Of a DNA stretch of 32,273 bases, positions 2,743 through 29,148 are shown piece after piece (the stretch's first letter is position 1; each line of letters begins with the position of its first letter). The notes beneath the pieces were generated by a model. That model was not told the DNA's origin and ran no database searches. It saw nothing but the letters and a program-made list of their open reading frames with translations. The DNA is taken from IMG/VR virus record IMGVR_UViG_3300010885_023073, positions 1 to 32,273 of that record. The stretch is one strand, 5' to 3'. The DNA comes from a virus. A program made the position numbers and the translations under genes.

Positions 2743-2755
2743 ATTCGTTTTCCTG

Positions 2756-4970: not shown

Positions 4971-7900
4971 TTAGTTTTGTCCTCTGAAGAACCTTGCGGC
5001 ATCAGTTTGGGTTACTTGCAATGCTTGTCCATCAGAGGGGTTGCCATTGGCCGGTTGATACCACCCGAATCCTTGTCTCACACGCAGAGAAACTTCATAT
5101 CCTGCTCGAGGTGCTGTTGCAAAGGTTATGGCAGCAGGTGCTACAGAATCCACTGTGTATCCTGTGGTCACTCGCAGACCGGCAACATATACTAGGATGG
5201 CCTGCTCAGCAAAATTCAAGGACAAGTTGCCAAGATTGATATTAGCTGCCGAGAATGTAGTGGTAGCACCATCTGCCAGTGTATTGGTGTACACGATGCG
5301 ATCTTGGTATTCAGCCGGAGCCAAGTTGCCTTGACCAAGATTGTATACGATACTACTCACAGCATGTTCGGCCACTGCTGTGCCTGCTGTACCACGCATT
5401 AGGCTACTTACCGTGTTGTTATTAGTGTCAAGTTCACGATACATGATACGCTCACCATTGATGGTGATGATTCCCCAGACGTTAATTTCTAAGTTGGGCT
5501 GTGTAAGCGTGCTGGCATTGTTCACATAAATGATATCTTGATCTTTGAATAATGTTTGTGTTAGATATGTGGTAGTTGCAGTAGTCATGCGATACGTGGC
5601 TTGTACTCCGCGCATGTCTTGGAATATACGGAATTCCATCTCTTCTGGCACAACCGAATCTGTAAACAACTGTGCTACTATCACATCAGTGGATCCGATC
5701 ACAGGGCCGTTCAGTATGAGTTGTTCTCCAGAAATCAAGAAATCATCACCATAGAAAATACGGGCACCGTTCTTTGTGACCCACATCCTTGTTGGATCAA
5801 GTATAATCCTGCCAAGCTGGAAATCATTTACGATAATTTGCACGCCTTCGGTGTAATCAAAACTGCCCGGGTCATCAGTGACTGTGCCCACATCAAAGTC
5901 GGTGCTGTCATAAGGTTCGTTTACTACGGTACCTATGGTCACTGGGCCTTGCCATAACAATGTTACTATGCTTTGCTGTGCGGTGTCATTCCAGGATGTG
6001 ACACTAACGATATCACCGTATTGAGGATAGAATCCACCGGAGGTGCGGAATACCAATTGATAATTGTCAATACTACTGCCGTCATCAAAAATCACATAAT
6101 CTGCTTTGGTAGTTACGCTGATCAACACTTGAGATCCTATGCCTGGAGCCGTAGTAAAATCTACATATCTGGTATTGCTACCGGTGTAGGGCTCTACTAT
6201 GTAATCGCTGCCTAAGGTGAGTCGATAGTTGTCTACATAAACAAGAACATCATTGTCAGCAACCAATGCCAGGCTGTACCCTCCGCGATTGGGCAGAGCG
6301 TATCCAGAACTTCCATCAGCAATATACAAAGCACCCTCAGGTGGTCTAGCACGGATGCCGTCTACTTCCACGATCAAGTTAGCAATGTTGGTACCCGACA
6401 TAGAATTTTCCAGCCGATAGTCCAACTGACCATAACTCACAAAATTCTGTGTCTGCGGTGTGGACCAGGTGTAAGGCAATGATCCATCAGTGCTGCCAAG
6501 AGCAGTGACATTGATCTCATCAGATGATCCATATGTATTAGAAAACATGATGTCAGTGGTGTTGTTGCTACCTGCCACATATGTATAATTGTTGATCAGC
6601 ACACCGTTGACAAAAATCACCATGTCAAAGATTTCAACATCTGCCACAGGAATGTTCAAGAAGTTGCCAACATCTGCGCCATTGAAACTGTTTTTGTACA
6701 GTTGATTGCCGCCGCCTATGCCAAATACACTCACTACCAAGGTATCGCCATTGGCTGCTGGTGGTGCACTGATACTGGGCACAATAGCAACTATTTGATT
6801 TACCCAATCCACAGTGTAGGCTATGCCTTGAGTGAGGTCTCGGCTTTGTGTTTGATTGGTCACACGTATCTGCACAGGATTAGGGACAATGCCTGCAAAA
6901 CTTTGTGTGTATGCGGTACTGCTGTTAAATGTCCATTTTGTGATCTTCCAGGCAAACCCGTGGCCATCTCCGGCCCAGTCAGATCCGGGGCGTGTATAAA
7001 CACGGAAGTCCATAGTGTCAAATTCCGAACCAGGTACCAGTTCTTCAGGTGCATGGCTTTCATAAGGACCCACAAACTCACCACCGACCACGTTGATATC
7101 TGTTGGGCGCAGTCCTAGATAGATATCCAGGAATCTACTTTCGTAGATAGTATCCAAAATACCCGGATCATATGTAGGACGACCTTCTGGGCCATAGGCA
7201 ATATTATCCCAAGGGTTTGTATCCCAGTTGCCCACGTCCCATCCGGTGTTTTGGTTAAATGTTGGAGCACTAACTTGCACGCCAGGGTAACTCACACCAT
7301 CAATCAGCAGACTTAGATCTAAACCAGGTTCATTCACGGTAGGAACATACAATCCCATGGTACGATCCACGCCACTGAGAGTGGCGGCATTTACCAGCAA
7401 CCAGTTTGCAGGATCAAATGTGGTGGTTTCAACCGCTGTAGAATCGGAACTGTTGGCTTCCCATACTCTATTGTCGTAACGTACTTGGGTACCGTTGTCA
7501 TATGACACATTGGGCTCCCAATCAACAATAGTAGTCACATATTGATATCTGTCATATTTCATGGTGACATCAAAACTACGCACTAGATTGTATGCTGTAT
7601 CATCAACCAAGGCATTAGCCATCACCGCAACTAGCTGTCCACCTGTGCCGTTGCCTCCATTGAGTGTGATGATAGCAGTTGTGGTATATCCTGACCCGGT
7701 GTCTACCACTGTGACTCCGGTGATAGCACCGGCACTGTTTACCAGAACAGTGAGAACCGCAGGAGTAACGCAATCACCAGTGACCACTGCTACTGGTGGC
7801 ACAGTGTATCCAGATCCTGCATCGGCAATGTTCACACTGACTACGCCTAGTGCATAGTTATCATACCAGAAACTCCAAGGCTGTTTTTGCCACACAAGAC

Positions 7901-10900
7901 TGTCGGCGGCCGCATCACTGGCATCACTGGGCGTGCCTGTACCAACTGCTGTACTCACTGTATAAGGTGTAAGTATGGGACTCACAAATTGATTGGGGAT
8001 CACATCAGTATCATAATACGCTGGAACATCAAAATCTGTGAGTGTGCCTTGATAGTCATCCAGACCGTTGTAGATAAGATTGAATTCACGAATCTGCACA
8101 TGATAAGGTTTGACTTCCTTAATGTAATCTACCACAAAGTCTTGATTGTCCTGACGATAAGTCTGGAATGGCAACAGTTCGCGAATAGTATGATCCACAT
8201 CGATCAATGAAGTCTTGCTTAGCCAGTCAGGTGCCTCGAACTCGCTCAGCACAAAATTAAACATCAAGATCAGAGCCCGATTGCGTTCTATCAACAGCTC
8301 GTCTATCAACAATTCCTGATTGATGGATTGGATTATCTTGCGAGTTTCAATCACCGGTTCTTGGTCAAAGTATTGTGCGTCAAATACATTAACGTCCCAT
8401 CCAAATTTACCCAGTTCATAATCCCACAGCACCGAAGAAATTTCAATAGTGCCATCCTGTAACGCCACTCGATTCCACATGTTAGTGGCTGCGCGTAGAT
8501 AAATTTCCCACTTGTTTTGTGAATTGGCCTTTACCCTAACACTGGATCCCACCGGTGCTTGATATACGCTTAACTTGGAGAGATCACTGTATATGGCCAC
8601 TGTGGCAATGATCTGTTTGCTAGGATTATATCCAGGAAGATACCAGTCAATGTGATTCCAGTATCTCCTTGTGTCATAGTTTTGTACTCGAACTAAATCC
8701 AAAGTAGCGAAGGTCTTTGTAGTAGTCACACTGTAGATGGTCCAGAAACCATTCTGAGCAGAATCACTCACCACCAAATATAGATAACCTACCGGAACTT
8801 GGGCAAAATCTTGATAACTGAGTTCTTCAAGATTGGCTACACGTTTGTTCCATGCTCCGGATCCAGAAGGTGGTTCGGGTTCTCTGCTGTACAGCAATGG
8901 AAAACTACGTATCTCTGTGATAGGATACTGTGCCAGCACCGAATTTACTCTAGTGAAGTAATTTTTTAATGCCAGAAATCTATCTTTGAACATGCTCTGC
9001 CGCGGGCGGAACTGCACACCATAACGATTGGCTATGCTGAGTCCCGGATCGGGTACCTGGGCACCGGTTGAGTTTACGCCGCACAGACTGTCAAGGAATT
9101 TGAGATACAAGGTATCAGGTAAGAATCCATCAGCACGGTCCTGGGGTATCAAACTGTACTGTACATGAACATTGGCATCTGTGAGTTCGCGGTCAAATTC
9201 AATGCTTAGTATAGTATCTTGAGCAGAGATATCGTTCACAGCATTGTAGATACCAGTGGCACTGGCACTGAGAAAAGCCACGTAAGGTACACCCGAACTT
9301 CTAGGATCTTCAATGTATCTTGCCACAGCAGTGATGGGCAGAGTTTTTCCTGCTGAGGTGTTGGTAGTGGTAATACCTTGTGCCCAGAAATAATAGGTAG
9401 TGGCAAAAATATTATCGGCGTTCAACCCAGTGGTCACATTGTAACTCAAAATATCTCGAGGAGTTCCTGGACCGGTATAGTTAGCCGGTGGTACTGTGCT
9501 GCTGATCCATTGATAGATCGCCACGACTGATCCAGGAAACACCTGTCCCCATCGGCGCGCAGCATAGGTAATATTGTCCTGATTGGGATCAATGAATCTC
9601 ACTGTGCTAGTGTCCCACCATACTTCGCCTATGTGTGCATCAGCCCAGATCCTACCAAAATTGTTTACTGCACCAACATTGTAGGCAGCAGGATCCACGG
9701 CACCAATGTAATTGATATTTTCCGCTGCTGCTCCTAGGATCTTGCCCTGTAACGGATCAAAGTAATCAAAGAAAGTGGTCTTGGCTCCGGTAATTGAACT
9801 GTAACTGTATACAGAATTGATCAATGAAGTATCCACCACCGGCACTTGTTCATGTATCACTGCCCAAGCAGGAGATTGATTGGCATTATTAAACACTGCC
9901 ACACGGCCATAATTCAATTCACTCAAGGTGCTGTCATCTACATCACTGCCCGGGCTGCCTATCATCAACACACCATTGGTGTAACTAACTGCTGAACCAA
10001 ACTGATCTAGTTCTTGCACTCGTTGGTCGTATATCTGTTGACCAAACACAAATTTGCCCGGATCACTCACAGAGTCCGATGCGCTAGATAGATAATCATA
10101 GGTGTATACTACACCAGTCTGATAAAGTGGTCCATTAAATGTAGTGGCACGACTGTCAAAATACGTGGTTCCTGCATCAAAGGTATTTGCACGATATAAA
10201 TTACCGCCGGGCGCACCAACTGTGAGTGTCAATGCCGAGGTATCGATGTTTACAGCAGTTCCAAATCCGGCATTTATCGCAGGTGCCGGACTGGTAATAG
10301 TTTGGGTGTATGCAAAGGTATCAAACTCAAGACTTTGGAATACAGTTCCAACCAGTCCCGGTAGCACAGTAAGTCGGTTACCTTTTTCTGCAGCCAGGAT
10401 GTTTTTCACGCTGATGGTCAACAATCCATAACTGCTGGTTCCTGCTACGCCCACTCTGGCGATCACATTAGAAATCCCGGACGCATTTATATCTTGTGCC
10501 AACACCGCAGGCCATCCACTGGTCTGCCAGTATGTGGTATTGGTAAGTGCGGTTCCTGCTGGCACAGCACGGATAGATATGTACAAGCCTTGTGCATACT
10601 CAACAATGCTATTTTTTGTATAGGCCGTGGTGATGCTCCAATAATCAGGAGTGCTCACAGCAACTTCTTGATCATTGATCCTGATAGTTTCACCGGGAAC
10701 CAACAATGCATTGGCATTAGTGCTGGTAATGACGCCATATACTCTGCTTTGATTTACGTTACGTTGTGTTGATCCAGCGTTGGATAACACAGAACTATCC
10801 TGGGGTGCTCCGGTGTAAAGACTGCAACTGTATCTGCAGATGTCCACTGCGGCACCAAAATTCGCTGATATACTGGGAGTGTTAGCACCAATGATCTGCA

Positions 10901-13900
10901 AGAGATTAAACGTGTTAACTTGTACTTGTAGTACATCTCCTATTGCCAAAGTAGGTGTGACTGTGACTGTGGATCCATTTACAGAGAAAGTTCCAGTCAC
11001 ATTGCCTTGTGTATTGGTCAGGAAGGTGTTGTTTAGTATCACAGAAGTGGGTGCAACTAAAAGATTCCCATCCACTGTATAAGAAGTTTGTGCAGTATCA
11101 GTTATGATAAAGTTCTGCACCGACCGATCGTACACATACACAGCACCAGCGGTTGTGGTGTTATCATAATAATCGTTAGGGGTACCAATCATGACCTGGC
11201 GACCATCCACAGTACAGGCTACACTTTGACCAAATCTGGCTGCATCGGGCAATCTAGCAGTAAGAGTGGTCGATGCTACACTTTGGCCAGGACTGACTTG
11301 ATAGGTGCCAGTGCCACCAGTGCCTGTGAGCAATGCTGTGATCCTGGACCCTTGAACAACTCCGGCGGCGCTTAGGATCATGCCCACAGTGAGTGGCGGT
11401 GCACCAACTGGCACATAATTCACAGTCATTGTGGTGCCACTGATTGATGCGGTGCAGGTTGTGGTGAATTCTAAAGTGTCAACAAAAGTATAATAACTGT
11501 TGGTGGCCACAGTAATAGAATCATTCAGCGCAGGTGCTGTTTCAAATATCAGATCTCTACCATAAGCACTGTCATCAGCATTAAATGTGTAGTCAATGTT
11601 TGGTCTTTGCAGAACTCCATTCAATGCTACCCGGAAGCTGTAGATGTTTACTGCACTGTATAGGTATTCATTCAGTGAGAATATCTCAGTTACTCCATCA
11701 CCGGTATATGATGCGTTGGTTCTGCGGATAATCTGTAATACTAGATCACTTGCTGGTATTGAAGTAAGCACCACGCTGGTACTGGTCTGTGTGTAATCCA
11801 CACCATAGATCAACTGTTGGTTGTTCAAAATCACAGTGATTTGTTCAGGATCTTGGAAATCAATCACAACGTGATCACTGTAGTTGAAAACCAGAGTTGA
11901 TCTATCTGTAATGTATTTAACTGATTGGGATTCAACCTCTACCAGTCCATAAGCAAATACCTTGTTGATACCCGGCGCGCCAATATACATCCATCTTTCG
12001 TCTCGACTGATAGCCACACTAGTGCCAAACTCTGCTGGGCGGACTAGGTCTCGAGGATCGGGTGCCGTGAGCAGAGCCGAGATAGCAAAACTCACTGTAC
12101 CCGGAATGCGGTATACCACGCTTGCATAGCCTCTGTTGTTGTAGCTGGCAGGAGCACCCACCACTTGCCAGGTTTGATCGCCGACACTGATAGACTGCCC
12201 AAATTTCAGCGTATCGGCTGCGTTGAGTACAATTATAGAATTTTCTACAAATGGAGCAAGTGCTGTGCGAACAAAAGTATATACGGTGCCGGTATCCGAA
12301 TCCGAAGCCGGACTGCCGACCAAGGCATACAAATTGTCTTTACTCTGCGCTACACTTTGACCAAATTCACTGTTAGACACCGGAGATGTGGCCTTGATCT
12401 CTGCTGCGGAGGTGAACACGTTTTGTTTTTCCAACACCTGCCACAATCCTAATCCGTTGTTGTCCACCCAAACTTTGTTTCCTGGAATAAGACTATTTGC
12501 GTAGGGAAGAGTGATCACATCGCTTGCCTGGCTCACACGCTGTGTCTGCAAGGTAAATCCAATACCCGAACCTGTAGCAGTGATTTGATTGGCATTGACA
12601 AAACTAAATGCGGCCACCAATTGATTGGCACTGGGCACATTCAATACTTGGTATGCACCATTGATTTCATCTGAGAAAAATCGCACAATGAACAGATTTC
12701 CTGCTGTGATTCCATGTGATTGTGTAAAAGTAAACACACTGGTACCATCAAGATTGGTAGTCACTGAAGTCAAATATCCTGGTAATTGACTGGTCCTGAA
12801 TATACCCCAATCATGGGTGTTGATCTTGGCCACCCAAATAACTGTGCCTAGGCCGATAGAATTGATATTTGCATTCAATGAAGCAGTATTGGTAATATCA
12901 AAAACCGTGATATCAACATCGTCAAAGTTCACATATCCTGCACTGGGCAATGCTGTGTCGGTCACAGGAATCGTGGTGGTGGTTAGGATGTTTGGGCTAG
13001 GTAATTTGTAACTGGATTTCCATAATTTGCTCAACAGCACTGTTTGATCGGCTAGGCTAGATTCGTTTGGCAGCACAACCTGTATGGTACTAGGATTGGC
13101 GGTGAGTAATGCTTCGTTGAGTTGTAGTTCATAAAAACTACGATTTGCATTGGCCCCATATGTGGCCCTCAGTACCGCCCAGTTTTCATATATGTCGTAC
13201 TGTGCTAATCCTCGCCCCAGATCAGCAAAAGTAAATATTTCAGCAGCACGTATGGTACCTTTGCTGCCTAAGAACTGTTGATACAGTTGTACCTGGCTGG
13301 TAGAATCTAGATTGAGATTTACCATGTATTGTCTTGGTTTCCACCCAATCAATGCATATGCAAACAGATCTTGATTGAGTTCAAGGTTGGCAGTATACAC
13401 ATTGTAACTGTTGGCCAACTGATCACTCTTGTTGGCCAGGTTAGGCAACATACCTTGCTGGATCAGCGTATAGTCAGACACAGTCCAATTGTTGATATCA
13501 AAGGCAGATGATGGCTGCACAATGTCCACAGCACTGTAATAGGTATTTTTCCATTTTACAATTTCACCTCGAGCATATTTTTTAAGCGGATTCCAGGGCT
13601 GGATGTTATCTTGATTTAATATGAATCCTTGTGCATCCAATTGGCCATTCCACTCGGTGGTGGTCCACCCCACCAGTCTCAATCGACTTTGTCTTGCACC
13701 TGTGACAGGGTTGTACAATAGGTCTGCAAAGATGCTGGTGTTGTCCAGCACAATCATGTTTTCGTAACTGGTAAACTTGATATTGAGAAAATTGATGGTT
13801 TCGTTGGTCAAACTGGTAATGGTGAAGGTATTATCCAATCTTTCAATCACAAGATCTCTAGCGTTAAAAGGTGTTCGATTGGCGTTGAGCACCATATTTT

Positions 13901-16900
13901 CCACCGTCTGCAAAGCGATACTGTCCACTATAGCACCCGGTTTTTCAACAATCAATTTAGTAGCACCCGGATTCAGATTGATAATAGACCCAGTTTCCCA
14001 TCCTTGATTGCTCCAATACAAGAATTCGCTGGCCATTTGATTCCAGTCTAGCACATATCCATTTTCCAAAGTATCAAATACTAGGCCTTGCTTCTGCAAC
14101 AACGCACCATAGCTCAACAGGAAATCTACCATCAAGGTCCTGTTGGTAAACACATAGCCATAGGGTATCTGTACCACATTGTTTGAATAATCCACAGGAA
14201 CTCGCACCGAGCTGCCACCAGCAGATACCGTGGCCAGGTTACCGTTGATCTGACTTTGTAAGATATTAAAGTATTGTTGATTTAAACTGTATCCATATAC
14301 TGCCCATCCATTGCTAGTGCTTTGCACAATCACACTGGAATATGTAAGTTGGGCAAATGGTACATTTTTGTAAAACAATAAGTTGTAACTGTTGTCTGGC
14401 AGCAACAAAGTAGAATTCAAACTGTTGGGACTGGATTTTTCTGTATAGATATCCAGAAGATTCTTTCCTGTGAAAGCAGCCATCCTGTAGCACAGTCTCA
14501 TATCAAGATTTTTAAGATCGGCAGTGAGTGCATCAGTGGAATTGATGCCACTCTGACGGTTGAAATCCACAATCCAATCAATATAACTGGCCTTGCTGGT
14601 ACCGTTGCCATAAATCTCTACACCATTAGCGTCCAATCTATAACGATGATTATACAAGTACTGATCATAATCAACATTAAATCGATAAAGATCTCTGTCA
14701 GCAAACAACGAGAAAAATTCAGCCGGGCGTGTGAGCGCCAACAATCTCATGATGGAAAATGGATATGCACTAGATGTGCGCCAGGCATTTTCAACAGGCC
14801 CGTCATCCCCGGCTATCCAACTACGGCGGAAATTGGTACTGTTAAAATTGCCCACCATGACTTGCATAGGACTGAGTAAGGCACCTTCGCTATCTGCGGG
14901 TATCACGTCCAATAATCCTGGACGTATATATCTAGGACGCACATAAGGTGCGATTGGGTCTCTAACCAGGCCGGCAGCTAGATCTTCCCACAGCACCAAG
15001 TTGCCCGAAGTGTACGGTAACGGACCATACTGTAACTCCCACCATACCGGACGTTCACTGAATCCCAACATCTCCCAGGGTCTGGTATTGGGATAAATTG
15101 TATCGTAGAAGTAGTTATAGATGCCGCGCCAGGCTCCTATAACCAGTGGTTGGTTGTTGGTGAGTTTGTTTGATGCGGTAGAATAGTTCCAAGTAAACTG
15201 ATTGGTGGGTATGTAGTCTTGTGCTTTGTAATCCAGTTTGTTCCATCCTACCCAGATCAAGAAATCCAAATTCAATATATCTTGTATTTCTTGTGTGCTG
15301 TAATCGGTAGTGCGGAACTCCCCGGGTATGACTTCTGCGGCGGTGAGTGGCACTGGATTGCCATCCAGTTTGAGATTGTTGTAGATCCTAGTTTCGTACT
15401 CTAACAGCAACTCATCACGGAAGTCGTCAAACGCTCTGGTGATTGACCCATCATGTCCACGGATCACAAATATCGGATCAACATAAGTTTCATCTAGGAA
15501 AATTTCTGGTACAAATGCAGGATACAATCCCATCTTAGTAGGAGTATTGGGCACATAATTTCCATAGGTGGCTTCATATTCCTGAATAGTTACTACATCA
15601 CCCACTGTGAGTGGTATTAAGATCGCAATGGTAGGTGCGTCAATACTGACAGTGTATTCAACATTTCTAGTCAGTAATCGATCATTTACATATACCAGCA
15701 AGGCTTGATAGTTGGCCGAGGTGTAATTGAATACCTGTGTGAGATCAAACACTGCATCGGTGATAGGAGTCACAGTGGTCTGTTGCTGTGTGTACACTGT
15801 GCCTGTGGGCAACATGTCGGACCAGTAGAATGGACTTGAGCTGGTACGCCCAATGTTGATTTCAGCAAATACTGCATTGAGTATTTCCGGGATGGTCATA
15901 TTTACGTAGTCACCGGTAACAGCCTGATTCAAGAATTGAGCTTTGAATTGCTCATACTGTCTTGAATTGTATTCCAAGGCTGCAAATATATCATACTCGG
16001 GTTTGCGGAAAAAATATCCTGCCAAGGTCATAGGTGAACTCTGTTGCAGGATGCTTAGTCCATAAGGAACAATGTTACCCAGGTCTCTAGAGTTGTTGGC
16101 TCCATTCACTGCACCAGTTAGATTTACTAGATTTTGTGCAATAGTGTCATAGTGAGTACGGATAGTTCCTAGAGTAAAACTAGAACTGTTGCCGTTCAAT
16201 GAATTGTTTTCTAGATTGATAGGTACTTGATAGAATCCCACAGCACTAACTTGATCGCTCAGGGCCAGCACTTCCACAATGTCCCCGGGCACTATCTTAG
16301 TGGTGGCATTGAATCTTATAGTAGTGGTATTATCAGTTGTGGTAAATGAGTATGTTCCGGGATCCTGGAACAGGCTGCTATAGTTTTGACTTATGCTAGT
16401 GGCATACAACTTGATACTGGGTACAGCGCCGGTTGGTACCACGGCCACATCCAATATCAACGGAGAGGTCACTGCCATCACTTGTGAATATACAGTTTGA
16501 GACGATGATACTGCGTATGTTCCTACTCCTCCGGTACCAGTGAGAAACTGGGTGATTTGTGTGCCAACCACAATGCCCGGGCCGCTGAGTGTTTGACCCA
16601 ACTGTAAAGATACTCCATCAGCAGGAGGTATTGTGACTGTGAGTGTGGTGGCAGAGATAGATCCTGTGATGGCCACGCTGGTGTAGGTGAAACTGAATTG
16701 TTGATAGATCTGACTCTTGACCACTGCGGTTTGCCAACCAATTTCTTTCTTGTACACAGTTCTATCTGCATATTGGCGCACATGACCTATGCTGATGTTT
16801 TTGGTGGTACCGGCGTTGTCCATGACATACAAAAATGTATCTGTGTACAAATTGTTATCAAAGACTATATCTCCTATGTTATTCAAACTGAGGTATCGTA

Positions 16901-19112
16901 GAGGAAAGCCCAAAACTGTATCTGCTATTCCACTGGTTCCTATGGCATAGCTGAACAATGCGCTGCCGCCAACTGTATCACCAAGATTGTTTTTGGTTGT
17001 TGAAAAAGTTGAACTAGGATATACCGCACGATTGCCCAGGCTATATCCATTCTGATCATATACATCAAACATGGGAGTTTGATTAACCGATGTTTTTTCT
17101 TGTGATCGGATCCACTGTTCACCATCATAAAAGAAAGTTATACCTTGCAGTGTATTGCCACTTAGACACACCACACATTGATCAACCAATGCTTCTGCAT
17201 CTGAAGCAGGCACAAGATTTATTATAGGCTCATCCTGTAGTGTACTGTCGGGCAATGGCCCAGTAGCAGGGCTGATAAAATTGACCACATATATTTTGTC
17301 TCGCACCCGAGCGTCTGAATCTCTTGCAAAGATAACCCTGGTTCCTTGTTGAAATACATATCCATCAATTGCATAACCAGGCTGCCCATTGATGTTGGAC
17401 AACGCATCGGTTTGACTAAGATCGATAATGTTTACCGGTTGCTTGGCCTGAGTGCCCATGTTGTACAATCTAATGCCACCGCGGAATTCGATAATTGGAC
17501 GTTTGGCTCGCTGTGCATTGTCCAACGAGGCTGTGGTATTGTTGTATGCAGCAGCAGCAGTAATCACGTCAATGTGGAACCAACGATTTGATCTAGTCCA
17601 GGCATTGAGATCCGCGCTATCCAACGCCACGGTGATGTAATCCAACTGTAAAGGTTGATTTAAACTGCCATCAAAGTTTCCCACATCAAAAGGCACTGAA
17701 TCAAAAGGTATAGTAGCACTCTGGGTATAAGTTTCCGGAGTGACATAGTTGCCTACCGGTAGCAGTTGGATGGCTGTTCCTACTCCGGCCACATAGTATG
17801 TTTGATTTTGATAACTGGTAGGAACCACGCTGCCACGGAAAGTGATCTTTAGATTGTTGGTAAACACCACGCCATTAGGAGCAGTATAGTTAGTTTTACC
17901 TAGTATATCTGTATCCACATTGATGGTTTCTACATCAGCCGGATTTACCAGTCTTATCTGCCCAAAAATTTCTGGATTGGTGCCATCTTGATACCATAGC
18001 AGATCTTTCACAGCAGTCAGCAGGGGCACTTGCTGGAAATATCCGTTGGCATTGCGATACCATTGTGTGGTGCTGTACTCAGTACCAAACATTATGGTAA
18101 ATTTATTCAATACCGGAACTTCTAGTATAGGTACCAAATTGAGCACTATTCCACCTATCGTGGTCTGATATTGTATTTGCCATACGTCAGGTGCAACTGC
18201 AGAACTGCTGAATACTACAGTTCGATTTTCAAGATTGGTGATTCCATCAATACCCGAGGGATACTCGGTCAGGAAGTCAGCAAGATATACACCATTGATT
18301 TGTTCAAGTTGTAAATCTGTAATTAGATCCACTTGCCCTGGATTGGGCACAGTGGGTGCAAGATCTAGGTTATAGTAGAATTGCTGTGCGTTTTTGTAGG
18401 GCACGTCAAATGTCACTGTGCCTGCATCTTCACCGTTGTTGCCAACACCCAGTACAGTCCTTGAACTGATGTTAGGAGCATATGGCAAAACTCCATCAAC
18501 ACCTGGGTCAGACTGTATCCAGAACGAGTTGGGAGATTGATTTACTGCAAAACTGTAGTTTCCTCCGCGCACTAGTGTGAGCACAGGGTTCTTACCAACT
18601 ATGCCCGAAAACTTATAATAGTTGTCTGCTCTAGTCACATCAAATGTGTCAGTGATGGGTATTGCAGCCGCACTCACATCCACGGCTAATGGTCCAGCGG
18701 GCAACCAATAATATTGACTGTAATTAGAAAATTTATCAAAACTTATAAAAGGATCCCAACTATAGTATTCACTGGTGTATAATCTTGCAGCGTTGTTGGT
18801 GATGCCTCCTTGACGACCAATGGCATCAGTTATACCAGGGTATGTGATAGCATCTGAAATAGTATTGGTGTCTGGCACCAAACTGATCACGCCGGGTTCC
18901 AACTGATAATTGGCACGAGTGGCCGTGGGCTCAATCACATAGTAATCATTGGGATTTACCCCGGGTCCCACATGCCGTCCTATAAATCCTTGTGTTTTTT
19001 TAAATTGTGGTTCTTGAACCAATTGATCCAGCGTGGCGGCCAAAAACTGTTTGTTAGTACTGGTCTGAAATATGGGTGGTAGAAAATCTACTGTTCTTGT
19101 GCGACTTGCCAT
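4971..19112 (-). CDS. Giant virion structural protein, 4713 aa (probable outer baseplate or adsorption protein)
   Basis: One uninterrupted frame of 14.1 kb directly after gp6, whose TAA overlaps its ATG (TAATG). The N-terminus MASRTRTVDFLPPIFQT, then FLAATLDQLVQEP and RHVGPGVNPNDYY, and YSQYYWLPAGP near residue 137, matches large proteins I recall from T4-like marine phages labelled only as virion structural. Seven FG-GAP-like motifs have their Phe at residues 2250, 2304, 2362, 2627, 2752, 2950 and 3038, enough for a seven-bladed beta-propeller with inserts. Three ~38-residue aromatic modules (Trp pairs 1840/1876, 2825/2862, 3865/3904) resemble CBM5/12 carbohydrate-binding domains. Two copies of a Thr/Gly-rich module lie near 811-875 and 2553-2615. 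Several segments of the form NG-x-L-x-G-x-DYT recur, and GSGYT repeats occur near 3765-3820. No hydrolase motif, signal peptide or membrane segment is seen. By position it stands in for T4 gp7-gp10; receptor or glycan contact is inference. Confidence 0.88.
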   Translation of the reverse strand: MASRTRTVDFLPPIFQTSTNKQFLAATLDQLVQEPQFKKTQGFIGRHVGPGVNPNDYYVIEPTATRANYQLEPGVISLVPDTNTISDAITYPGITDAIGRQGGITNNAARLYTSEYYSWDPFISFDKFSNYSQYYWLPAGPLAVDVSAAAIPITDTFDVTRADNYYKFSGIVGKNPVLTLVRGGNYSFAVNQSPNSFWIQSDPGVDGVLPYAPNISSRTVLGVGNNGEDAGTVTFDVPYKNAQQFYYNLDLAPTVPNPGQVDLITDLQLEQINGVYLADFLTEYPSGIDGITNLENRTVVFSSSAVAPDVWQIQYQTTIGGIVLNLVPILEVPVLNKFTIMFGTEYSTTQWYRNANGYFQQVPLLTAVKDLLWYQDGTNPEIFGQIRLVNPADVETINVDTDILGKTNYTAPNGVVFTNNLKITFRGSVVPTSYQNQTYYVAGVGTAIQLLPVGNYVTPETYTQSATIPFDSVPFDVGNFDGSLNQPLQLDYITVALDSADLNAWTRSNRWFHIDVITAAAAYNNTTASLDNAQRAKRPIIEFRGGIRLYNMGTQAKQPVNIIDLSQTDALSNINGQPGYAIDGYVFQQGTRVIFARDSDARVRDKIYVVNFISPATGPLPDSTLQDEPIINLVPASDAEALVDQCVVCLSGNTLQGITFFYDGEQWIRSQEKTSVNQTPMFDVYDQNGYSLGNRAVYPSSTFSTTKNNLGDTVGGSALFSYAIGTSGIADTVLGFPLRYLSLNNIGDIVFDNNLYTDTFLYVMDNAGTTKNISIGHVRQYADRTVYKKEIGWQTAVVKSQIYQQFSFTYTSVAITGSISATTLTVTIPPADGVSLQLGQTLSGPGIVVGTQITQFLTGTGGVGTYAVSSSQTVYSQVMAVTSPLILDVAVVPTGAVPSIKLYATSISQNYSSLFQDPGTYSFTTTDNTTTIRFNATTKIVPGDIVEVLALSDQVSAVGFYQVPINLENNSLNGNSSSFTLGTIRTHYDTIAQNLVNLTGAVNGANNSRDLGNIVPYGLSILQQSSPMTLAGYFFRKPEYDIFAALEYNSRQYEQFKAQFLNQAVTGDYVNMTIPEILNAVFAEINIGRTSSSPFYWSDMLPTGTVYTQQQTTVTPITDAVFDLTQVFNYTSANYQALLVYVNDRLLTRNVEYTVSIDAPTIAILIPLTVGDVVTIQEYEATYGNYVPNTPTKMGLYPAFVPEIFLDETYVDPIFVIRGHDGSITRAFDDFRDELLLEYETRIYNNLKLDGNPVPLTAAEVIPGEFRTTDYSTQEIQDILNLDFLIWVGWNKLDYKAQDYIPTNQFTWNYSTASNKLTNNQPLVIGAWRGIYNYFYDTIYPNTRPWEMLGFSERPVWWELQYGPLPYTSGNLVLWEDLAAGLVRDPIAPYVRPRYIRPGLLDVIPADSEGALLSPMQVMVGNFNSTNFRRSWIAGDDGPVENAWRTSSAYPFSIMRLLALTRPAEFFSLFADRDLYRFNVDYDQYLYNHRYRLDANGVEIYGNGTSKASYIDWIVDFNRQSGINSTDALTADLKNLDMRLCYRMAAFTGKNLLDIYTEKSSPNSLNSTLLLPDNSYNLLFYKNVPFAQLTYSSVIVQSTSNGWAVYGYSLNQQYFNILQSQINGNLATVSAGGSSVRVPVDYSNNVVQIPYGYVFTNRTLMVDFLLSYGALLQKQGLVFDTLENGYVLDWNQMASEFLYWSNQGWETGSIINLNPGATKLIVEKPGAIVDSIALQTVENMVLNANRTPFNARDLVIERLDNTFTITSLTNETINFLNIKFTSYENMIVLDNTSIFADLLYNPVTGARQSRLRLVGWTTTEWNGQLDAQGFILNQDNIQPWNPLKKYARGEIVKWKNTYYSAVDIVQPSSAFDINNWTVSDYTLIQQGMLPNLANKSDQLANSYNVYTANLELNQDLFAYALIGWKPRQYMVNLNLDSTSQVQLYQQFLGSKGTIRAAEIFTFADLGRGLAQYDIYENWAVLRATYGANANRSFYELQLNEALLTANPSTIQVVLPNESSLADQTVLLSKLWKSSYKLPSPNILTTTTIPVTDTALPSAGYVNFDDVDITVFDITNTASLNANINSIGLGTVIWVAKINTHDWGIFRTSQLPGYLTSVTTNLDGTSVFTFTQSHGITAGNLFIVRFFSDEINGAYQVLNVPSANQLVAAFSFVNANQITATGSGIGFTLQTQRVSQASDVITLPYANSLIPGNKVWVDNNGLGLWQVLEKQNVFTSAAEIKATSPVSNSEFGQSVAQSKDNLYALVGSPASDSDTGTVYTFVRTALAPFVENSIIVLNAADTLKFGQSISVGDQTWQVVGAPASYNNRGYASVVYRIPGTVSFAISALLTAPDPRDLVRPAEFGTSVAISRDERWMYIGAPGINKVFAYGLVEVESQSVKYITDRSTLVFNYSDHVVIDFQDPEQITVILNNQQLIYGVDYTQTSTSVVLTSIPASDLVLQIIRRTNASYTGDGVTEIFSLNEYLYSAVNIYSFRVALNGVLQRPNIDYTFNADDSAYGRDLIFETAPALNDSITVATNSYYTFVDTLEFTTTCTASISGTTMTVNYVPVGAPPLTVGMILSAAGVVQGSRITALLTGTGGTGTYQVSPGQSVASTTLTARLPDAARFGQSVACTVDGRQVMIGTPNDYYDNTTTAGAVYVYDRSVQNFIITDTAQTSYTVDGNLLVAPTSVILNNTFLTNTQGNVTGTFSVNGSTVTVTPTLAIGDVLQVQVNTFNLLQIIGANTPSISANFGAAVDICRYSCSLYTGAPQDSSVLSNAGSTQRNVNQSRVYGVITSTNANALLVPGETIRINDQEVAVSTPDYWSITTAYTKNSIVEYAQGLYISIRAVPAGTALTNTTYWQTSGWPAVLAQDINASGISNVIARVGVAGTSSYGLLTISVKNILAAEKGNRLTVLPGLVGTVFQSLEFDTFAYTQTITSPAPAINAGFGTAVNIDTSALTLTVGAPGGNLYRANTFDAGTTYFDSRATTFNGPLYQTGVVYTYDYLSSASDSVSDPGKFVFGQQIYDQRVQELDQFGSAVSYTNGVLMIGSPGSDVDDSTLSELNYGRVAVFNNANQSPAWAVIHEQVPVVDTSLINSVYSYSSITGAKTTFFDYFDPLQGKILGAAAENINYIGAVDPAAYNVGAVNNFGRIWADAHIGEVWWDTSTVRFIDPNQDNITYAARRWGQVFPGSVVAIYQWISSTVPPANYTGPGTPRDILSYNVTTGLNADNIFATTYYFWAQGITTTNTSAGKTLPITAVARYIEDPRSSGVPYVAFLSASATGIYNAVNDISAQDTILSIEFDRELTDANVHVQYSLIPQDRADGFLPDTLYLKFLDSLCGVNSTGAQVPDPGLSIANRYGVQFRPRQSMFKDRFLALKNYFTRVNSVLAQYPITEIRSFPLLYSREPEPPSGSGAWNKRVANLEELSYQDFAQVPVGYLYLVVSDSAQNGFWTIYSVTTTKTFATLDLVRVQNYDTRRYWNHIDWYLPGYNPSKQIIATVAIYSDLSKLSVYQAPVGSSVRVKANSQNKWEIYLRAATNMWNRVALQDGTIEISSVLWDYELGKFGWDVNVFDAQYFDQEPVIETRKIIQSINQELLIDELLIERNRALILMFNFVLSEFEAPDWLSKTSLIDVDHTIRELLPFQTYRQDNQDFVVDYIKEVKPYHVQIREFNLIYNGLDDYQGTLTDFDVPAYYDTDVIPNQFVSPILTPYTVSTAVGTGTPSDASDAAADSLVWQKQPWSFWYDNYALGVVSVNIADAGSGYTVPPVAVVTGDCVTPAVLTVLVNSAGAITGVTVVDTGSGYTTTAIITLNGGNGTGGQLVAVMANALVDDTAYNLVRSFDVTMKYDRYQYVTTIVDWEPNVSYDNGTQVRYDNRVWEANSSDSTAVETTTFDPANWLLVNAATLSGVDRTMGLYVPTVNEPGLDLSLLIDGVSYPGVQVSAPTFNQNTGWDVGNWDTNPWDNIAYGPEGRPTYDPGILDTIYESRFLDIYLGLRPTDINVVGGEFVGPYESHAPEELVPGSEFDTMDFRVYTRPGSDWAGDGHGFAWKITKWTFNSSTAYTQSFAGIVPNPVQIRVTNQTQSRDLTQGIAYTVDWVNQIVAIVPSISAPPAANGDTLVVSVFGIGGGNQLYKNSFNGADVGNFLNIPVADVEIFDMVIFVNGVLINNYTYVAGSNNTTDIMFSNTYGSSDEINVTALGSTDGSLPYTWSTPQTQNFVSYGQLDYRLENSMSGTNIANLIVEVDGIRARPPEGALYIADGSSGYALPNRGGYSLALVADNDVLVYVDNYRLTLGSDYIVEPYTGSNTRYVDFTTAPGIGSQVLISVTTKADYVIFDDGSSIDNYQLVFRTSGGFYPQYGDIVSVTSWNDTAQQSIVTLLWQGPVTIGTVVNEPYDSTDFDVGTVTDDPGSFDYTEGVQIIVNDFQLGRIILDPTRMWVTKNGARIFYGDDFLISGEQLILNGPVIGSTDVIVAQLFTDSVVPEEMEFRIFQDMRGVQATYRMTTATTTYLTQTLFKDQDIIYVNNASTLTQPNLEINVWGIITINGERIMYRELDTNNNTVSSLMRGTAGTAVAEHAVSSIVYNLGQGNLAPAEYQDRIVYTNTLADGATTTFSAANINLGNLSLNFAEQAILVYVAGLRVTTGYTVDSVAPAAITFATAPRAGYEVSLRVRQGFGWYQPANGNPSDGQALQVTQTDAARFFRGQN

Positions 19113-22100
19113 TAGATCACTCCGCTGCCCGGGGCAGTTCTTATATTGATTGATGTCAATGCAGTTATCACTTCTACCGAACTCACACCGGCTGCGTTAA
19201 CAAATATTTCATTAGGTGCTGAACGGATTTCGTAGAGATCGCCAAAATATTTCAGGGGGTCCAATGGCACCAATACCACAGAACTCACGACACCCCCCAT
19301 ATTGCGATGTATGTATGCTGCTAGTTCAGAGAAATAAAAGGTATCACCAAAGTTCCACGCTGCGATATCAAAGTATTGATTAAGGTTGGCCACCACTAGG
19401 GTTTTGATTTCACTTTCACTGGCAGTTGAATTTGCAGCACGGATCACCTTGATAGTTGCTCGAAGATTTTCCGCTGCCTTGGGACCAAACAAGGGTTTGA
19501 ATGTTACAGAATTTACTACCACATTATCTGAGATCATTTTGTACTTGTTAAGCCCTTGATAAGCAGTACTGAGCTCGTTGATGGTAGGAACCGTAGGTTT
19601 GGGTACTGTATTTGTGTTATCTCTGACCCAGTTGGTGTATGCAGTGTAGTAACTTTGTGTTACCACATACAAGTCAATGATATTAGTAGTACCCGGGTCT
19701 ATGCGATCTGTGAGTGGAGCATTGTGTCTATATTGGAAATATATGCCCGATCGACCCACTTTGGCCAACCAGGTACCTGTGACATCTATCAGGCTTCGCA
19801 CACCGGTGGTAGAGATTGCCAATTCATAAAATGCACCAATCTGCCCGGCAAGTGGGCCGGTGAAGATTTCCTGACTGTATGCGTAAAATATTTGTCCAAC
19901 GATATATTGGGACTTGACCAATTCAATATCATCCAATAACGCATAGTCACTGTTCACTCGCTCTGGGTCAACCAAGAGATAGCGTTGTAAATTATCAAAG
20001 TCCACAGTCTTTTCAAAGAACACATACTTGGTGCTTGGATTCACTGCAGGGGCCACGATCTCATTAAAGAAATCCGGGTCATCGGCTATGCCATCACTGT
20101 CGCTGTCTCGATAACTCACTATGACCTGATAGTCGTCCACGTAGCCATCTGATTGCACAGGTTGCCCAATAATGCTGAGATAGATATCACTGGGCAATGG
20201 ACTATTTGAATCAGGAAGGCTGTTGGTTCGTAACACATTTACATAATCGCTGATGGTCTTGCCGGTTCTTGGATCATAGATACGATTGGCAGTTTCAAAG
20301 AAAAATCTTGTTTGAAGCACTGATCCAAAATTGTATACCAATGCGCGGCTGGTCACGGTGTATTTTACGCCGTCGGTCACAGCCTGTATCATCCATGACG
20401 CATCCTGATTGGTGCCAGAAGTGCTCTGTGCGTTGGCCAGGCTGAAATCTGCATCCACCGCAAGGTTGTTTGATGTGATCAAGTACCAGGTCTGTGTGAG
20501 ATTGTTGTATCCAAGTCCAAAATTTCTGTATAACAAGATCTGTTCAGATATGCTGTTCTCAAGGCTGGTGGGAATATCTGTGATCAGTAGCGGAATTACC
20601 TGTACCGGAATAGCCCCTGTGGGTACGAAATTATTCAGTGTCACCGGACCTTGGCCACTTAATCTGCCCGAAGTAAAATTGCCTTGACCTTGATTGGTAC
20701 CATCTATGTATATGCTCACAGGACTGGCCCATAACTCAAGACGTTCAGCCGCCAGTGTGGGAGTACCTAGTTTTAGTCGGTTGTTAGCATCAAAATAATA
20801 ACCTGCAGGAGCAGCAAATTTTACCAAACTACCCACCTGTATATATTTGGTGTTAGTGCTGGAGTAAATGCTGATAACAGCAGGATTTCCTAGAGAATTC
20901 ACAAAGTATCCTGTGGTTTCGTTGGCCAAGGTGGTGCTCTGATGCCAAGTGAGATTGTTGGCCAAGAGATCAGGTCTTACAAAATTAGCATAGTAGAATT
21001 GTGTAAATGCATTGGTAATCAGCAACGGCTGTATCTGGTTGGTTATTACACTGGCCACTTCATTTCTTGTGAGCCATGTGAATAAAAACGTGGGCAATTG
21101 ATTTTCTTCCCAGATGGCACCGTCTGACGCAAAGATATTTGTACTACTGTATTTGCCTGTGTTGTCCACCAGATCAAGATATCTACTGGTGCCAATGCTG
21201 GCACGGTTTAAAGCATAACTCTTGATGATACTGTTGTAAGCAGTGAATGGAAAGTTGGTGTAGTCTTCACCATTCACCATGCGATTCTGTGTGTAGTATC
21301 TTGCTGGAGCACGTTGTTTGATCTGATCAAGAGTTTCTCGAGCCTGAGCATTGCTCACCGGAGTGGTAATACCACAAGTGAATGTTATGGTTTGTAGCTG
21401 ACCGGATCTACTGACATAACTGATGGGTATGACCACACTCTGCATCTCATCAGGATTGATAATGTATGTGAGACCGTTACTGGCACGAACATAACAACGG
21501 AATATTCCAACTGGAACACTGGAAAAAACACCATCACCAAATGTCAAAGTAATCTGATCGTTGGCCCTGCTGGTAACAGAAAATAGTTTGCGTTGATCAG
21601 GAGCCAATTGTTCGGCCGCTGCGGCATATACTGACTCTACATATTTCCATTCAGCAGATACGTTGCCAACATTGTCTAATTGAAACAACCAACGGTCTTC
21701 ATTGTTCACACCTTCAATGTTAATATCCACTGTGCGATTTGGGATACGTTCAGCAAGATTGAAGTCTTGATTCTGCAACACGCCTTGCTTGAAGTAAAAG
21801 AAATAACCAGTATTGGCGCTGGCAAATCCTAACGAATCATTACGGAACAATAAATTAAAAATACCATTGGGCAATGGCGATGGCTCATATACAAATGGAG
21901 CAGTAGCTGGCGTTCCCACCGAAGTAGAATTAACTGCCTCAAACGGCATGTTCACACCATCCACTGTGGCAGTGTATGGAAACACTGGTAAAAACCCAGG
22001 CACCAAGTTAACGCTGTATTCAGATGTGTCCACGCCCAGGATAGTGGTACGATTTCCTGGTCGACCCACACGTTGTGTGTTCACCAAGGCTGCATTGATG

Positions 22101-22576
22101 ATAGTGGCAAACTGCTCGGCCCAGTTGAAGTTGGTAGGGTCATTCCAGTTCACTGTGACACTACCAAGATCAATCCCATTGAAGTCAACTACATTTTCTG
22201 TGGTTTGAACTGAAAATACTTTGAGATATCCCTGTGCCTCTGTATTGCGCTTGGGAGTGTAGCTCACAAGATTGGCCAGCCGAACCACGCTGTCTCTGCG
22301 TTCTGCGGTGTCAATATAATTTTCGCGTGTGTTGAGATCGTTCCTGAAACTCATGGCCTGACCCATGAATGCCATCACATCCAACATGGCCATGAATTCC
22401 GATGATTCAATGTAATCATTGAATGCTTCAGGATAGTATTGGCGTAGGTAATCTACGAAACTTTTTCTTAAAGCTTCAAAGTCGTAGCTCTGAAAGTCGG
22501 CTTCTCTAAAGGTCTGGTAGATACGTTTCCAGTCTTCAACTCCGAATACAACTGTTTGTCTAGTAGTGCGTGCCAT
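19112..22576 (-). CDS. gp6: Baseplate wedge protein gp6-like, 1154 aa
   Basis: T4 gp6 dimers form the inner ring of the baseplate wedges that switches shape on infection. The N-terminal region here (VFGVEDWKRIYQTFREADFQSYD, then SFVDYLRQYYPEAFNDYIESSEFMAMLDVMAFMGQ, residues ~10-75) and the following RNDLNTRENYIDTAERRDSV are typical of T4-like gp6. The C-terminal ~130 residues (SEIKTLVVANLNQYFDI, FGDTFYFSELAAYIHRNMGG) match the conserved gp6/gpJ-type end. The T4 protein is about 660 residues; here the middle is expanded to give 1154, with beta-rich sequence between residues about 220 and 900. It lies 40 bases after gp25, the usual T4-like pairing, and overlaps the giant gene by one base. No strong Shine-Dalgarno is seen; AATAAGA is the only purine run before the ATG. 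Confidence 0.92.
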   Translation of the reverse strand: MARTTRQTVVFGVEDWKRIYQTFREADFQSYDFEALRKSFVDYLRQYYPEAFNDYIESSEFMAMLDVMAFMGQAMSFRNDLNTRENYIDTAERRDSVVRLANLVSYTPKRNTEAQGYLKVFSVQTTENVVDFNGIDLGSVTVNWNDPTNFNWAEQFATIINAALVNTQRVGRPGNRTTILGVDTSEYSVNLVPGFLPVFPYTATVDGVNMPFEAVNSTSVGTPATAPFVYEPSPLPNGIFNLLFRNDSLGFASANTGYFFYFKQGVLQNQDFNLAERIPNRTVDINIEGVNNEDRWLFQLDNVGNVSAEWKYVESVYAAAAEQLAPDQRKLFSVTSRANDQITLTFGDGVFSSVPVGIFRCYVRASNGLTYIINPDEMQSVVIPISYVSRSGQLQTITFTCGITTPVSNAQARETLDQIKQRAPARYYTQNRMVNGEDYTNFPFTAYNSIIKSYALNRASIGTSRYLDLVDNTGKYSSTNIFASDGAIWEENQLPTFLFTWLTRNEVASVITNQIQPLLITNAFTQFYYANFVRPDLLANNLTWHQSTTLANETTGYFVNSLGNPAVISIYSSTNTKYIQVGSLVKFAAPAGYYFDANNRLKLGTPTLAAERLELWASPVSIYIDGTNQGQGNFTSGRLSGQGPVTLNNFVPTGAIPVQVIPLLITDIPTSLENSISEQILLYRNFGLGYNNLTQTWYLITSNNLAVDADFSLANAQSTSGTNQDASWMIQAVTDGVKYTVTSRALVYNFGSVLQTRFFFETANRIYDPRTGKTISDYVNVLRTNSLPDSNSPLPSDIYLSIIGQPVQSDGYVDDYQVIVSYRDSDSDGIADDPDFFNEIVAPAVNPSTKYVFFEKTVDFDNLQRYLLVDPERVNSDYALLDDIELVKSQYIVGQIFYAYSQEIFTGPLAGQIGAFYELAISTTGVRSLIDVTGTWLAKVGRSGIYFQYRHNAPLTDRIDPGTTNIIDLYVVTQSYYTAYTNWVRDNTNTVPKPTVPTINELSTAYQGLNKYKMISDNVVVNSVTFKPLFGPKAAENLRATIKVIRAANSTASESEIKTLVVANLNQYFDIAAWNFGDTFYFSELAAYIHRNMGGVVSSVVLVPLDPLKYFGDLYEIRSAPNEIFVNAAGVSSVEVITALTSINIRTAPGSGVI

Positions 22577-22616: not shown

Positions 22617-22997
22617 CTAGTTTAAAGCAAAATTTGCTATGCGTTGTTGTTGATCAAAAAACACACTCAATAGTTCAGCATTGGTATTGGGGGCAAATTG
22701 TATTTCTAATTCTATCAACACACCGTTTTGCTGAGGAAATACCAATGCGTCAATGAGATTGATCCTTGGGTCACCGCCAACAACACGCTGTACTTCTTTG
22801 ATTATGTTACTCAAAGTGGTCTGATCTTGGCTTTCAAACAAAAAACTCCACAAGATGGTTCCATACCCTGGTCGGCCGGGCAACTGCCCTTGTGTGATAT
22901 TAAAAGCATTGAGTAGATCACGTTTGATCAATTCACTGTCAACTAACGTGAACTTTTTGTATTGATTTTGAGTATTGAATCCAATGAATGTAGACAT
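22617..22997 (-). CDS. gp25: Baseplate wedge protein gp25-like, 126 aa
   Basis: gp25 joins the wedge core to the sheath and is among the most conserved contractile-tail proteins (GPW/gp25 family). The length fits T4 gp25 (132 residues). Visible family features are the helical DSELIKRDLLNAFNITQGQLPGRPGYGT near residues 18-46, the Gly-rich LPGRPGYG turn, an IIKEVQRVVGGDPRINLIDA stretch near residues 65-84, and the terminal strand VLIELEIQFAP. The gene lies between the 445-aa structural gene and gp6 in the usual T4-like order. No clear Shine-Dalgarno precedes the ATG; instead CATAAATA ends four bases upstream. Confidence 0.93.
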   Translation of the reverse strand: MSTFIGFNTQNQYKKFTLVDSELIKRDLLNAFNITQGQLPGRPGYGTILWSFLFESQDQTTLSNIIKEVQRVVGGDPRINLIDALVFPQQNGVLIELEIQFAPNTNAELLSVFFDQQQRIANFALN

Positions 22998-23015: not shown

Positions 23016-24353
23016 TCAAGCGTTCCCAGGTCCCAACCGATTCAGTGCTGCAACGATAACATCCTGATTTGCGCGGGCCTGTGCTATCTCGGCGCGATAT
23101 CTAGGGATTGACTTGGCTGCATCTGCTGCACGAACAGTATCTCCCACATCGAGATAGTAGGCCTGATACTTTTCTGCATCTCTAATTTGCCGTTCATTGA
23201 TGCGTATGAGATCACGCATGTCTTCGTAGAGTTCATCGAGAATTCGTCTTGCTGTGGCTGGTCTCAAAGCATTGAGTTGGGCTGCTGTGATCACAGGTGT
23301 GGTAAGAGGTCCTGTGTACACTGTATCAGGCACGGCTGCCGGTGCTGCCGCCGCCGCTGCCGCTGCTGGTGTAAAAGTGGGAGTCTCAATTTTAGCATCA
23401 CCGATTATTGCAGATGTAGCCTGATCCACACTGGTTCTGTTCACTGTGCTGGTAAATCCTTTTGCTGCCACTACACCTGCTTGTAAAGGATTGCCGCCGC
23501 CTGATATAGCAGAATTGATGTCAGCAAATGACTGGCTGAACTGTGCGGATGTGGCAAAATTATTCATTTGATTTATCAAGGCACCGGGTGCCTTGCCATT
23601 GAGCCAGGCAGTGGCAGTGGCAGCTCCAAATTTAGTAGCATTGTTCAATAGTGGTCCCAGTTGACTGGCTATTTCGGTGCCCTTGATAGTGCCCAACTGT
23701 TTGAGTTGATCAAAATTCGCATTCATCAATCCTTGTTGCACACGAGTTTGTAGACTGCTATTGTTCAGCACCGAATCAAGATTCACAGCCCCCAACTTGC
23801 CAGTCCAACTGCTAGGACTGCTCAGTATCTCTTTGAATTTTTCCGGAATCTGTTTTATCTGTTCGGCAATTCCAGGTTTGATCAATCCTGACAACTGCAA
23901 TTGACTGGCATCAAGACCAAATTTTCCAAGTCCTTTTGCATTGGTGATAGTGTCGGCGGCTTGATTGACCGACGCTGCGGCCTGTGCCACAAGACCTTGT
24001 ATCTGATTAGATGCGATAGATCCAATATTTTGGCCACTGATCTTTGTGGTTACAAAATTACTCACTGATATGGCATTTGGAATCAAGGCTCCTATCTTGG
24101 TAGGAAGATTGATAGCGCCGCCTATTTGTTTGGTGAGTGCTATTGCTTGAGGTCCAATCTGTGCCAAAGCCGACGACAGCCCGCCTGCTGCTTGAGTCAC
24201 AGCATTGACTGTAACGCCTACTGGAATATTTGTTAAACTGCCTGTGGATAGTTGCTTGTCAAATATTGCTTTGGCCTGATCAAATGTGGCGCCCGAAGGA
24301 CCTTGTATTTCAAACACCTTACCATCAGGGCCGGTAAATTTAAAAACACTCAT
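23016..24353 (-). CDS. Structural protein of unknown role, 445 aa
   Basis: The N-terminus has MSVFKFTGPDGKVFEIQGPSG followed by ATFDQAKAIFDKQLSTG, a short motif I recall at the start or inside of several phage structural and hydrolase proteins. Residues ~40-320 are Ala/Gln/Asn-rich and predicted helical, with phrases such as GGLSSALAQIGPQAIAL and NQAADTITNAKGLGKFG. An Ala-rich linker near residue 330 (PAAAAAAAAPAA) precedes a charged C-terminal coiled coil (LYEDMRDLIRINERQIRDAE onward). The ATG overlaps the TGA of gp5 (ATGA), so it is coupled to the spike gene. Placed between gp5 and gp25, it may be a hub or spike-associated protein; it is unlike any T4 protein I can name. A tape-measure role is less likely given its modest length and location. 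Confidence 0.75.
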   Translation of the reverse strand: MSVFKFTGPDGKVFEIQGPSGATFDQAKAIFDKQLSTGSLTNIPVGVTVNAVTQAAGGLSSALAQIGPQAIALTKQIGGAINLPTKIGALIPNAISVSNFVTTKISGQNIGSIASNQIQGLVAQAAASVNQAADTITNAKGLGKFGLDASQLQLSGLIKPGIAEQIKQIPEKFKEILSSPSSWTGKLGAVNLDSVLNNSSLQTRVQQGLMNANFDQLKQLGTIKGTEIASQLGPLLNNATKFGAATATAWLNGKAPGALINQMNNFATSAQFSQSFADINSAISGGGNPLQAGVVAAKGFTSTVNRTSVDQATSAIIGDAKIETPTFTPAAAAAAAAPAAVPDTVYTGPLTTPVITAAQLNALRPATARRILDELYEDMRDLIRINERQIRDAEKYQAYYLDVGDTVRAADAAKSIPRYRAEIAQARANQDVIVAALNRLGPGNA

Positions 24354-28848: not shown

Positions 28849-29148
28849 TTAGAATCCTAATGCGTTACGCAATGTGGTTATCTTGGGTAGATAGATCAAG
28901 GTGCCCACCTTGAAATCCAACGGAGGTTTTGTAAGGGTGTTGGGATTTCGCTGATAAAATACCCACCACAGAGTAGAATTATCGTAAAGATCAAATGCCA
29001 GCATATCGGGTCTGTACTGATATGTCTGTGTGATCACCAGGGTCTGGTCGTCACTTTCTTTAGGAAAAGGACGATTGGTCATCACATCCAGAAAGAACTG
29101 ACTGTAGGGAGTGAGATAGTACGCACTAGTGCTGTCGTAGTTAGCCAT
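28849..29148 (-). CDS. gp53: Baseplate wedge protein gp53-like (LysM-like fold), 99 aa
   Basis: The central and C-terminal part, YRPDMLAFDLYDNSTLWWVF followed by YQRNPNTLTKPPLDFKVGTL and IYLPK, is the signature of gp53 and related LysM-like wedge proteins: RPD-x-LA near residues 48-53, paired Trp, RNP, and a G-x-x-IY-x-P ending. T4 gp53 has 196 residues, so this is a short form lacking the C-terminal extension. The N-terminus (SAYYLTPYSQFFLDVMTNRPFP) is also typical. Its ATG overlaps the TAA of the tube-cap gene (TAATG) and it lies two bases from the hub gene, so it is firmly inside the baseplate operon. A generic LysM-domain tail protein is the alternative. Confidence 0.78.
   Translation of the reverse strand: MANYDSTSAYYLTPYSQFFLDVMTNRPFPKESDDQTLVITQTYQYRPDMLAFDLYDNSTLWWVFYQRNPNTLTKPPLDFKVGTLIYLPKITTLRNALGF

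Follow-up and report, generated by a model that had tools for sequence, protein, structure and literature searches.

An interrupted seven-bladed FG-GAP propeller of integrin-alpha type predicted in a giant wedge-operon protein of uncultured T4-related phages

Why would a giant phage protein, encoded beside baseplate wedge genes, carry seven FG-GAP-like motifs of the kind found in the propeller of integrin alpha chains? The question is raised by the stretch of viral DNA analysed here (32,273 nucleotides, IMG/VR record IMGVR_UViG_3300010885_023073; hereafter the window), which encodes a protein of 4,713 amino acids on its minus strand (4971..19112). The gene lies immediately downstream of a homologue of the baseplate wedge protein gp6 (19112..22576, minus strand; phrog_10646, E 3e-277, and also phrog_219), which in turn follows a homologue of the wedge protein gp25 (22617..22997, minus strand; PF04965 and PHROGs). 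Upstream of this gp25-gp6-giant order, and farther from the giant, are genes for a gp5-like hub/spike protein (24350..25861, minus strand) and a gp53-like baseplate wedge subunit (28849..29148, minus strand; phrog_7145, E 1.4e-19). The gp5-like protein (503 residues) matches the Phage_base_V OB domain and no lysozyme domain in Pfam, and a late sigma factor is encoded in the window on the strand opposite the giant. The source is a T4-related and probably jumbo phage; we call the group jumbo because two of the propeller-bearing contigs measure 262 and 343 kb.

Outside the propeller, the giant is homologous to the 'virion structural protein' of jumbo phages, and its PA5oct homologue is annotated as detected by ESI-MS/MS, which supports the giant being a virion protein. 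Like T4 gp7, the giant follows gp6 in the wedge operon. Profiles built from blocks 1186-2010 and 3090-3680 of the giant retrieved neither T4 gp7 nor any other baseplate chain from the PDB, and the correspondence with gp7 is therefore one of gene position only. It is likewise gene position that would place the propeller at the baseplate rim.

All seven FG...G[SAT]P motifs reported in the first-pass annotation (Phe 2250, 2304, 2362, 2627, 2752, 2950 and 3038) were recovered by a regular expression that matched nowhere else in the giant and that found a mean of 0.03 and a maximum of 1 motif in 200 shuffles of the protein. The strands said to follow the motifs (TVYTF, SVVYR, VFAYG, VYVYD, RVYGV, VYTYD and VAVFN) are indeed there; the repeat unit itself has to be redrawn as D-A-B-C, with a D strand preceding each FG. 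The suggested profile search against FG-GAP families bore out the assignment, as FG-GAP_2 (PF14312) matched the giant at 57.1 bits against a curated cut-off of 23 (E 2.1e-15) and also matched 44 of 44 homologues, counted at E values up to 0.01; a six-frame scan placed FG-GAP_2 at four separate positions in the frame of the giant. When each blade was left out in turn and tested against an HMM of the other six built from homologue sequences only, six blades were recovered at 15.5-29.4 bits, compared with a best score of 6.8-9.5 in 200 shuffles. Blade 2 reached 4.8 bits, which is not significant by itself, and is accepted on the strength of where it lies, how well it is conserved and what the structure model shows. 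No relative turned up among PDB sequences in a phmmer search with the propeller region, and the match to integrins is thus visible only by profile and by fold.

Structure prediction, also suggested in the first-pass annotation, gave confident models. AlphaFold2 returned a pTM of 0.82 for the window region, with pLDDT mostly above 90 across the propeller (54 aligned sequences) and low confidence past residue 3092, and a mean pLDDT of 90.0 with a pTM of 0.91 for L034, a homologue of 755 residues whose inserts are shorter. Strand units occur at all seven motifs, and the strand lists describe four-stranded blades. Integrin alpha chains dominated the fold matches, accounting for all 50 PDB matches listed by Foldseek for the homologue model (best E 1.2e-11) and for the large majority among the matches listed for the window model. 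The best alignment of the homologue spans 786 columns over a 440-residue integrin head, with a TM score of 0.62 by target length; RMSDs of the best matches are about 7-18 Å, which is high because the inserts break the alignment. That the predicted ring is closed is suggested by the pTM values, by alignments that take in entire integrin heads, and by an additional strand at each end, since blade 7 could be completed by 2236-2239 or by 3083-3088. We conclude that the region is almost certainly a seven-bladed, interrupted FG-GAP propeller of integrin-alpha type.

Pfam, AlphaFold2, Foldseek and the break in homology with cultured relatives together delimit the propeller to residues about 2232-3090 (9843..12419; this and all coordinates below are on the minus strand). 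Repeat 1 (residues 2236-2281, FG 2250; 12270..12407) is defined as strands D-A-B-C by DSSP of the model and contains nearly all of the best Pfam stretch, 2235-2280; repeat 2 (2289-2335, FG 2304; 12108..12248), weak in the leave-one-out test, is likewise drawn from DSSP. The leave-one-out HMM and the model define repeat 3 (2342-2391, FG 2362; 11940..12089), in which DERWMYIGAPG is almost invariant; repeat 4 (2613-2664, FG 2627; 11121..11276), also found in the six-frame scan; repeat 5 (2735-2788, FG 2752; 10749..10910); repeat 6 (about 2935-3009, FG 2950; 10086..10310); and repeat 7 (about 3019-3076, FG 3038; 9885..10058). Repeat 5 has a conserved CxxxC, with Cys 2759 in 72 of 72 alignment rows and Cys 2763 in 71 of 72. 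Cys 2633 in repeat 4 is present in 58 of the 72 rows; from the sequence, these cysteines could provide blade 5 with a disulfide or a metal site at its A-B turn.

Successive FG pairs in the window protein are 54, 58, 265, 125, 198 and 88 residues apart. The 265 residues described earlier for blades 3 to 4 hold as a spacing, the net insert being only about 220 residues. The beta-rich inserts noted earlier between blades 3-4, 4-5 and 5-6 do fold confidently as beta modules (pLDDT about 90), and each joins strand C of blade 3, 4 or 5 to strand D of the following unit. Insert 3-4 (residues about 2392-2612; 11277..11939) holds two bead-like modules and a GTGG-type module, insert 4-5 (about 2670-2729; 10926..11105) holds one bead-like module, and insert 5-6 (about 2789-2932; 10317..10748) is a flagellin-IN-like domain with nested modules, among them a CBM5/12-like module recognised by sequence and profile matches (about 2825-2877; 10482..10640). 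A GTGG-x-GTY module occurs twice in the giant, at about 810-880 (GTGG at 859) and, within insert 3-4, at about 2555-2615 (GTGG at 2597). The C-terminal part of the protein (window 4971-9843) contains more bead-like modules, for example near residue 4291, and a weak PF02839 match is listed for residues 3865-3904 (18 bits against a cut-off of 26.2); these features make the giant modular as a whole.

Across homologues the inserts differ in how freely they vary. FG-to-FG spacing ranges from 190 to 295 residues for blades 3-4 and from 147 to 270 for blades 5-6, because whole modules are present or absent; it is almost constant for blades 4-5 and is 88 residues for blades 6-7 in all but a few rows. 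Insert 3-4 consists of two beads with or without a third module, which in the window is the GTGG-type; insert 4-5 is a single bead; and the flagellin-IN-like domain of insert 5-6 may have a CBM5/12-like module, a bead or both nested in it. The CBM5/12-like module shows 49% identity with part of P20 (tail fibre J) of phage phiL7. A tail fibre of the F2 pyocin is matched by the profile of the region (E 5.6e-4), and three of the 44 homologues have PF02839 matches, the best with E 5e-4. The usual propeller topology puts C-D loops on the lower, outer side. On the whole, conservation is stronger in the A-B turns, presumably on the lower face where the inserts are, than in the D-A loops, presumably on the upper face. 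The calcium cage motif of integrins, DxDxDG, occurs in 0 of 308 blade sequences, and calcium binding as in integrins was accordingly rejected.

The propeller is fixed in a large clade that is known here only from environmental contigs. An IMG/VR search with the propeller found 72 loci, 71 of which could be aligned across the region, and these 71 retain all seven motifs save for a few FG-pair substitutions, mostly F to Y. Using the N-terminus alone as query, so that the propeller could not influence the search, yielded 45 loci whose reading frame extends past the region, some on contigs shared with the first set, and all 45 have exactly seven blades. Seeding the search with a cultured, propeller-less relative uncovered about 50 distant giants with 3-7 detectable blades at the same place, some of whose reading frames end early; more than seven blades were never seen among them, and the blade HMM found none in reversed decoys. 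The earlier reading of seven motifs as exactly one propeller therefore agrees with the homologues, close and distant.

The blade HMM also found no blades in PA5oct, Phosso, GAP32, Atu_ph07, SCTP-2, RaK2, Vibrio phage 2.275.O or PBECO4, or in contigs L178, L181 and L243, and a tblastn search of the cultured phages in the collection turned up none with the propeller and only one module, that in phiL7. In the propeller-less phages, homology to the giant ends near residues 2010-2207 and restarts near 3059-3090, with only about 35-45 residues between the flanking blocks in GAP32 and PBECO4. Since the flanks continue without a propeller in cultured jumbo phages (PA5oct, RaK2, GAP32 and PBECO4), the propeller behaves as a plug-in domain. 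The Phosso and Atu_ph07 giants (L078 and L080) have roughly 1,500 residues of other sequence at the propeller position; a hidden propeller in this middle part was considered, and the blade HMM found none. In a tree of block 1186-2010, a single change separates 55 propeller-bearing from 12 propeller-less rows with a support of 100, and because the tree is unrooted this change is one gain or one loss.

With the repeat, the predicted fold, its conservation, its single-event distribution and the modular inserts established by computation, the question becomes what the propeller does. One possibility, which we favor by a modest degree of belief, is that it forms a rigid wedge-borne platform that displays exchangeable surface-binding modules. 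The propeller would be a self-contained plug-in domain, its two ends meeting, within the giant encoded after gp6; the ring would sit at the baseplate rim and present the insert modules, some of them carbohydrate-binding- or tail-fibre-like, outward to the host cell surface; and exchange of modules would change binding specificity and leave the wedge undisturbed. This reading is suggested by the variation of the inserts by whole modules, one of which is similar to a module found in tail fibres of phages and pyocins. Since the giant has bead and CBM-like modules outside the propeller too, their presence alone is no proof of a display role. From the character of the modules, which hint at receptor or glycan binding, we would put a receptor-binding role for the propeller at about even. 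It is conceivable, and we offer this only tentatively and with some doubt, that this uncultured jumbo clade recognizes its hosts by an integrin-like propeller built into the wedge and alters its specificity through module exchange at the blade connections, not through exchange of tail-fibre tips. The propeller-less relatives are working phages, so a wedge does not generally need the propeller.

The main rival to the binding platform is that the ring is closed but purely architectural, joining wedge subunits or fibre attachment proteins, with the inserts acting as spacers or docking sites. We think this somewhat unlikely but give it real weight. Among the loops, the A-B turns, which share the presumed lower face with the inserts, belong to the better conserved ones; an assembly interface would be expected to keep spacings as nearly constant as those of blades 4-5 and, at 88 residues, of blades 6-7; and T4 gp7, in the same gene position, is well established as a structural protein. 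The exchange of whole modules in inserts 3-4 and 5-6, including one of tail-fibre type, is nevertheless more typical of exposed parts. A ring that is split or completed in trans, for instance with the inserts dividing blades 1-3 from blades 4-7, would accommodate both the large inserts between blades 3 and 4 and the high Foldseek RMSDs over the window model, yet it is very improbable given that the unit number is always seven and that the shorter-insert homologue, with its pTM of 0.91, aligned to whole seven-bladed integrin heads.

It is very improbable that the propeller is an enzyme domain, such as one that degrades polysaccharide, instead of a binding platform. Propellers often carry glycosidase sites, but the best matches here are integrin alpha chains, which are non-catalytic, and no glycosidase family in Pfam matched the window protein or its homologues. 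That the short motifs arose by chance or convergence and form no propeller could be argued from Pfam detecting only four of the seven blades individually and from the weakness of blade 2 alone; this reading is largely refuted by shuffles with no more than one motif, by Pfam matches in 44 of 44 homologues and by a confident AlphaFold2 fold with integrin matches, and its probability is negligible. Shared by dozens of related environmental phages and absent from the cultured relatives tested, the propeller is real, and it appears to be an undescribed device for host contact or assembly.

The finding puts an integrin-type propeller among the components of T4-like contractile tails. The single change in the tree suggests that a wedge protein gained or lost a closed domain in one step of its evolution. 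The propeller marks a large group of environmental phages, with no cultured member found in the collection searched, and a defined domain of 750-880 residues provides an object for direct tests of host recognition by uncultured jumbo phages.

The phage domain resembles FG-GAP_2 and the integrin alpha propeller in its FG...GAP motif, its D-A-B-C unit, its seven units and its best PDB fold. It differs from integrins in having no DxDxDG cage in any of the 308 blades, in being carried by a tail protein, and in the placement of its inserts, which occupy the C-D connections of blades 3-5; in integrins the I domain is inserted between blades 2 and 3. The gp6-adjacent giants of PA5oct, RaK2, GAP32, PBECO4, Atu_ph07, Phosso and SCTP-2 share the gp25-gp6-giant order and are about 20-40% identical to the window giant in blocks of the N-terminal 2,000 residues and in 3060-3750, but unlike it they have no propeller. 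Two Phosso proteins (XYS97266 and XYS97267, about 3,160 and 3,690 residues) and the 'hemagglutinin' of Atu_ph07 (YP_009611985) do have FG-GAP_2 repeats, as the window giant does, but are encoded by separate genes far from gp6; the fold search also matches an Atu_ph07 protein named hemagglutinin. The two Phosso genes are adjacent (L256, Sinorhizobium phage Phosso 48338-68978), are annotated as hypothetical and hold the majority of the 42 FG-GAP_2 matches in Phosso; with far more than seven repeats together, their products may, from sequence, be strings of propellers.

The first-pass annotation knew of no propeller described in a T4-like baseplate, and the literature searched, a part of the whole, does not contradict it, with neither a phage FG-GAP propeller nor a baseplate propeller of this type found there. 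Tail beta-propellers are known from the receptor-binding proteins of the S. aureus phages phi11 and 80alpha and from the nozzle proteins of T7 and SU10 (PMC4901313, PMC7048315, PMC6702177, PMC9509320), and in the papers searched the term FG-GAP does not accompany them. Propeller lectins also occur in the fibres of eCIS (PMC12923769). Unlike the propeller described here, those of phi11, 80alpha, T7 and SU10 do not belong to a T4-like wedge giant; the new features are that the wedge giant next to gp6 contains a propeller, that this propeller is interrupted, and that it is fixed in a large environmental clade.
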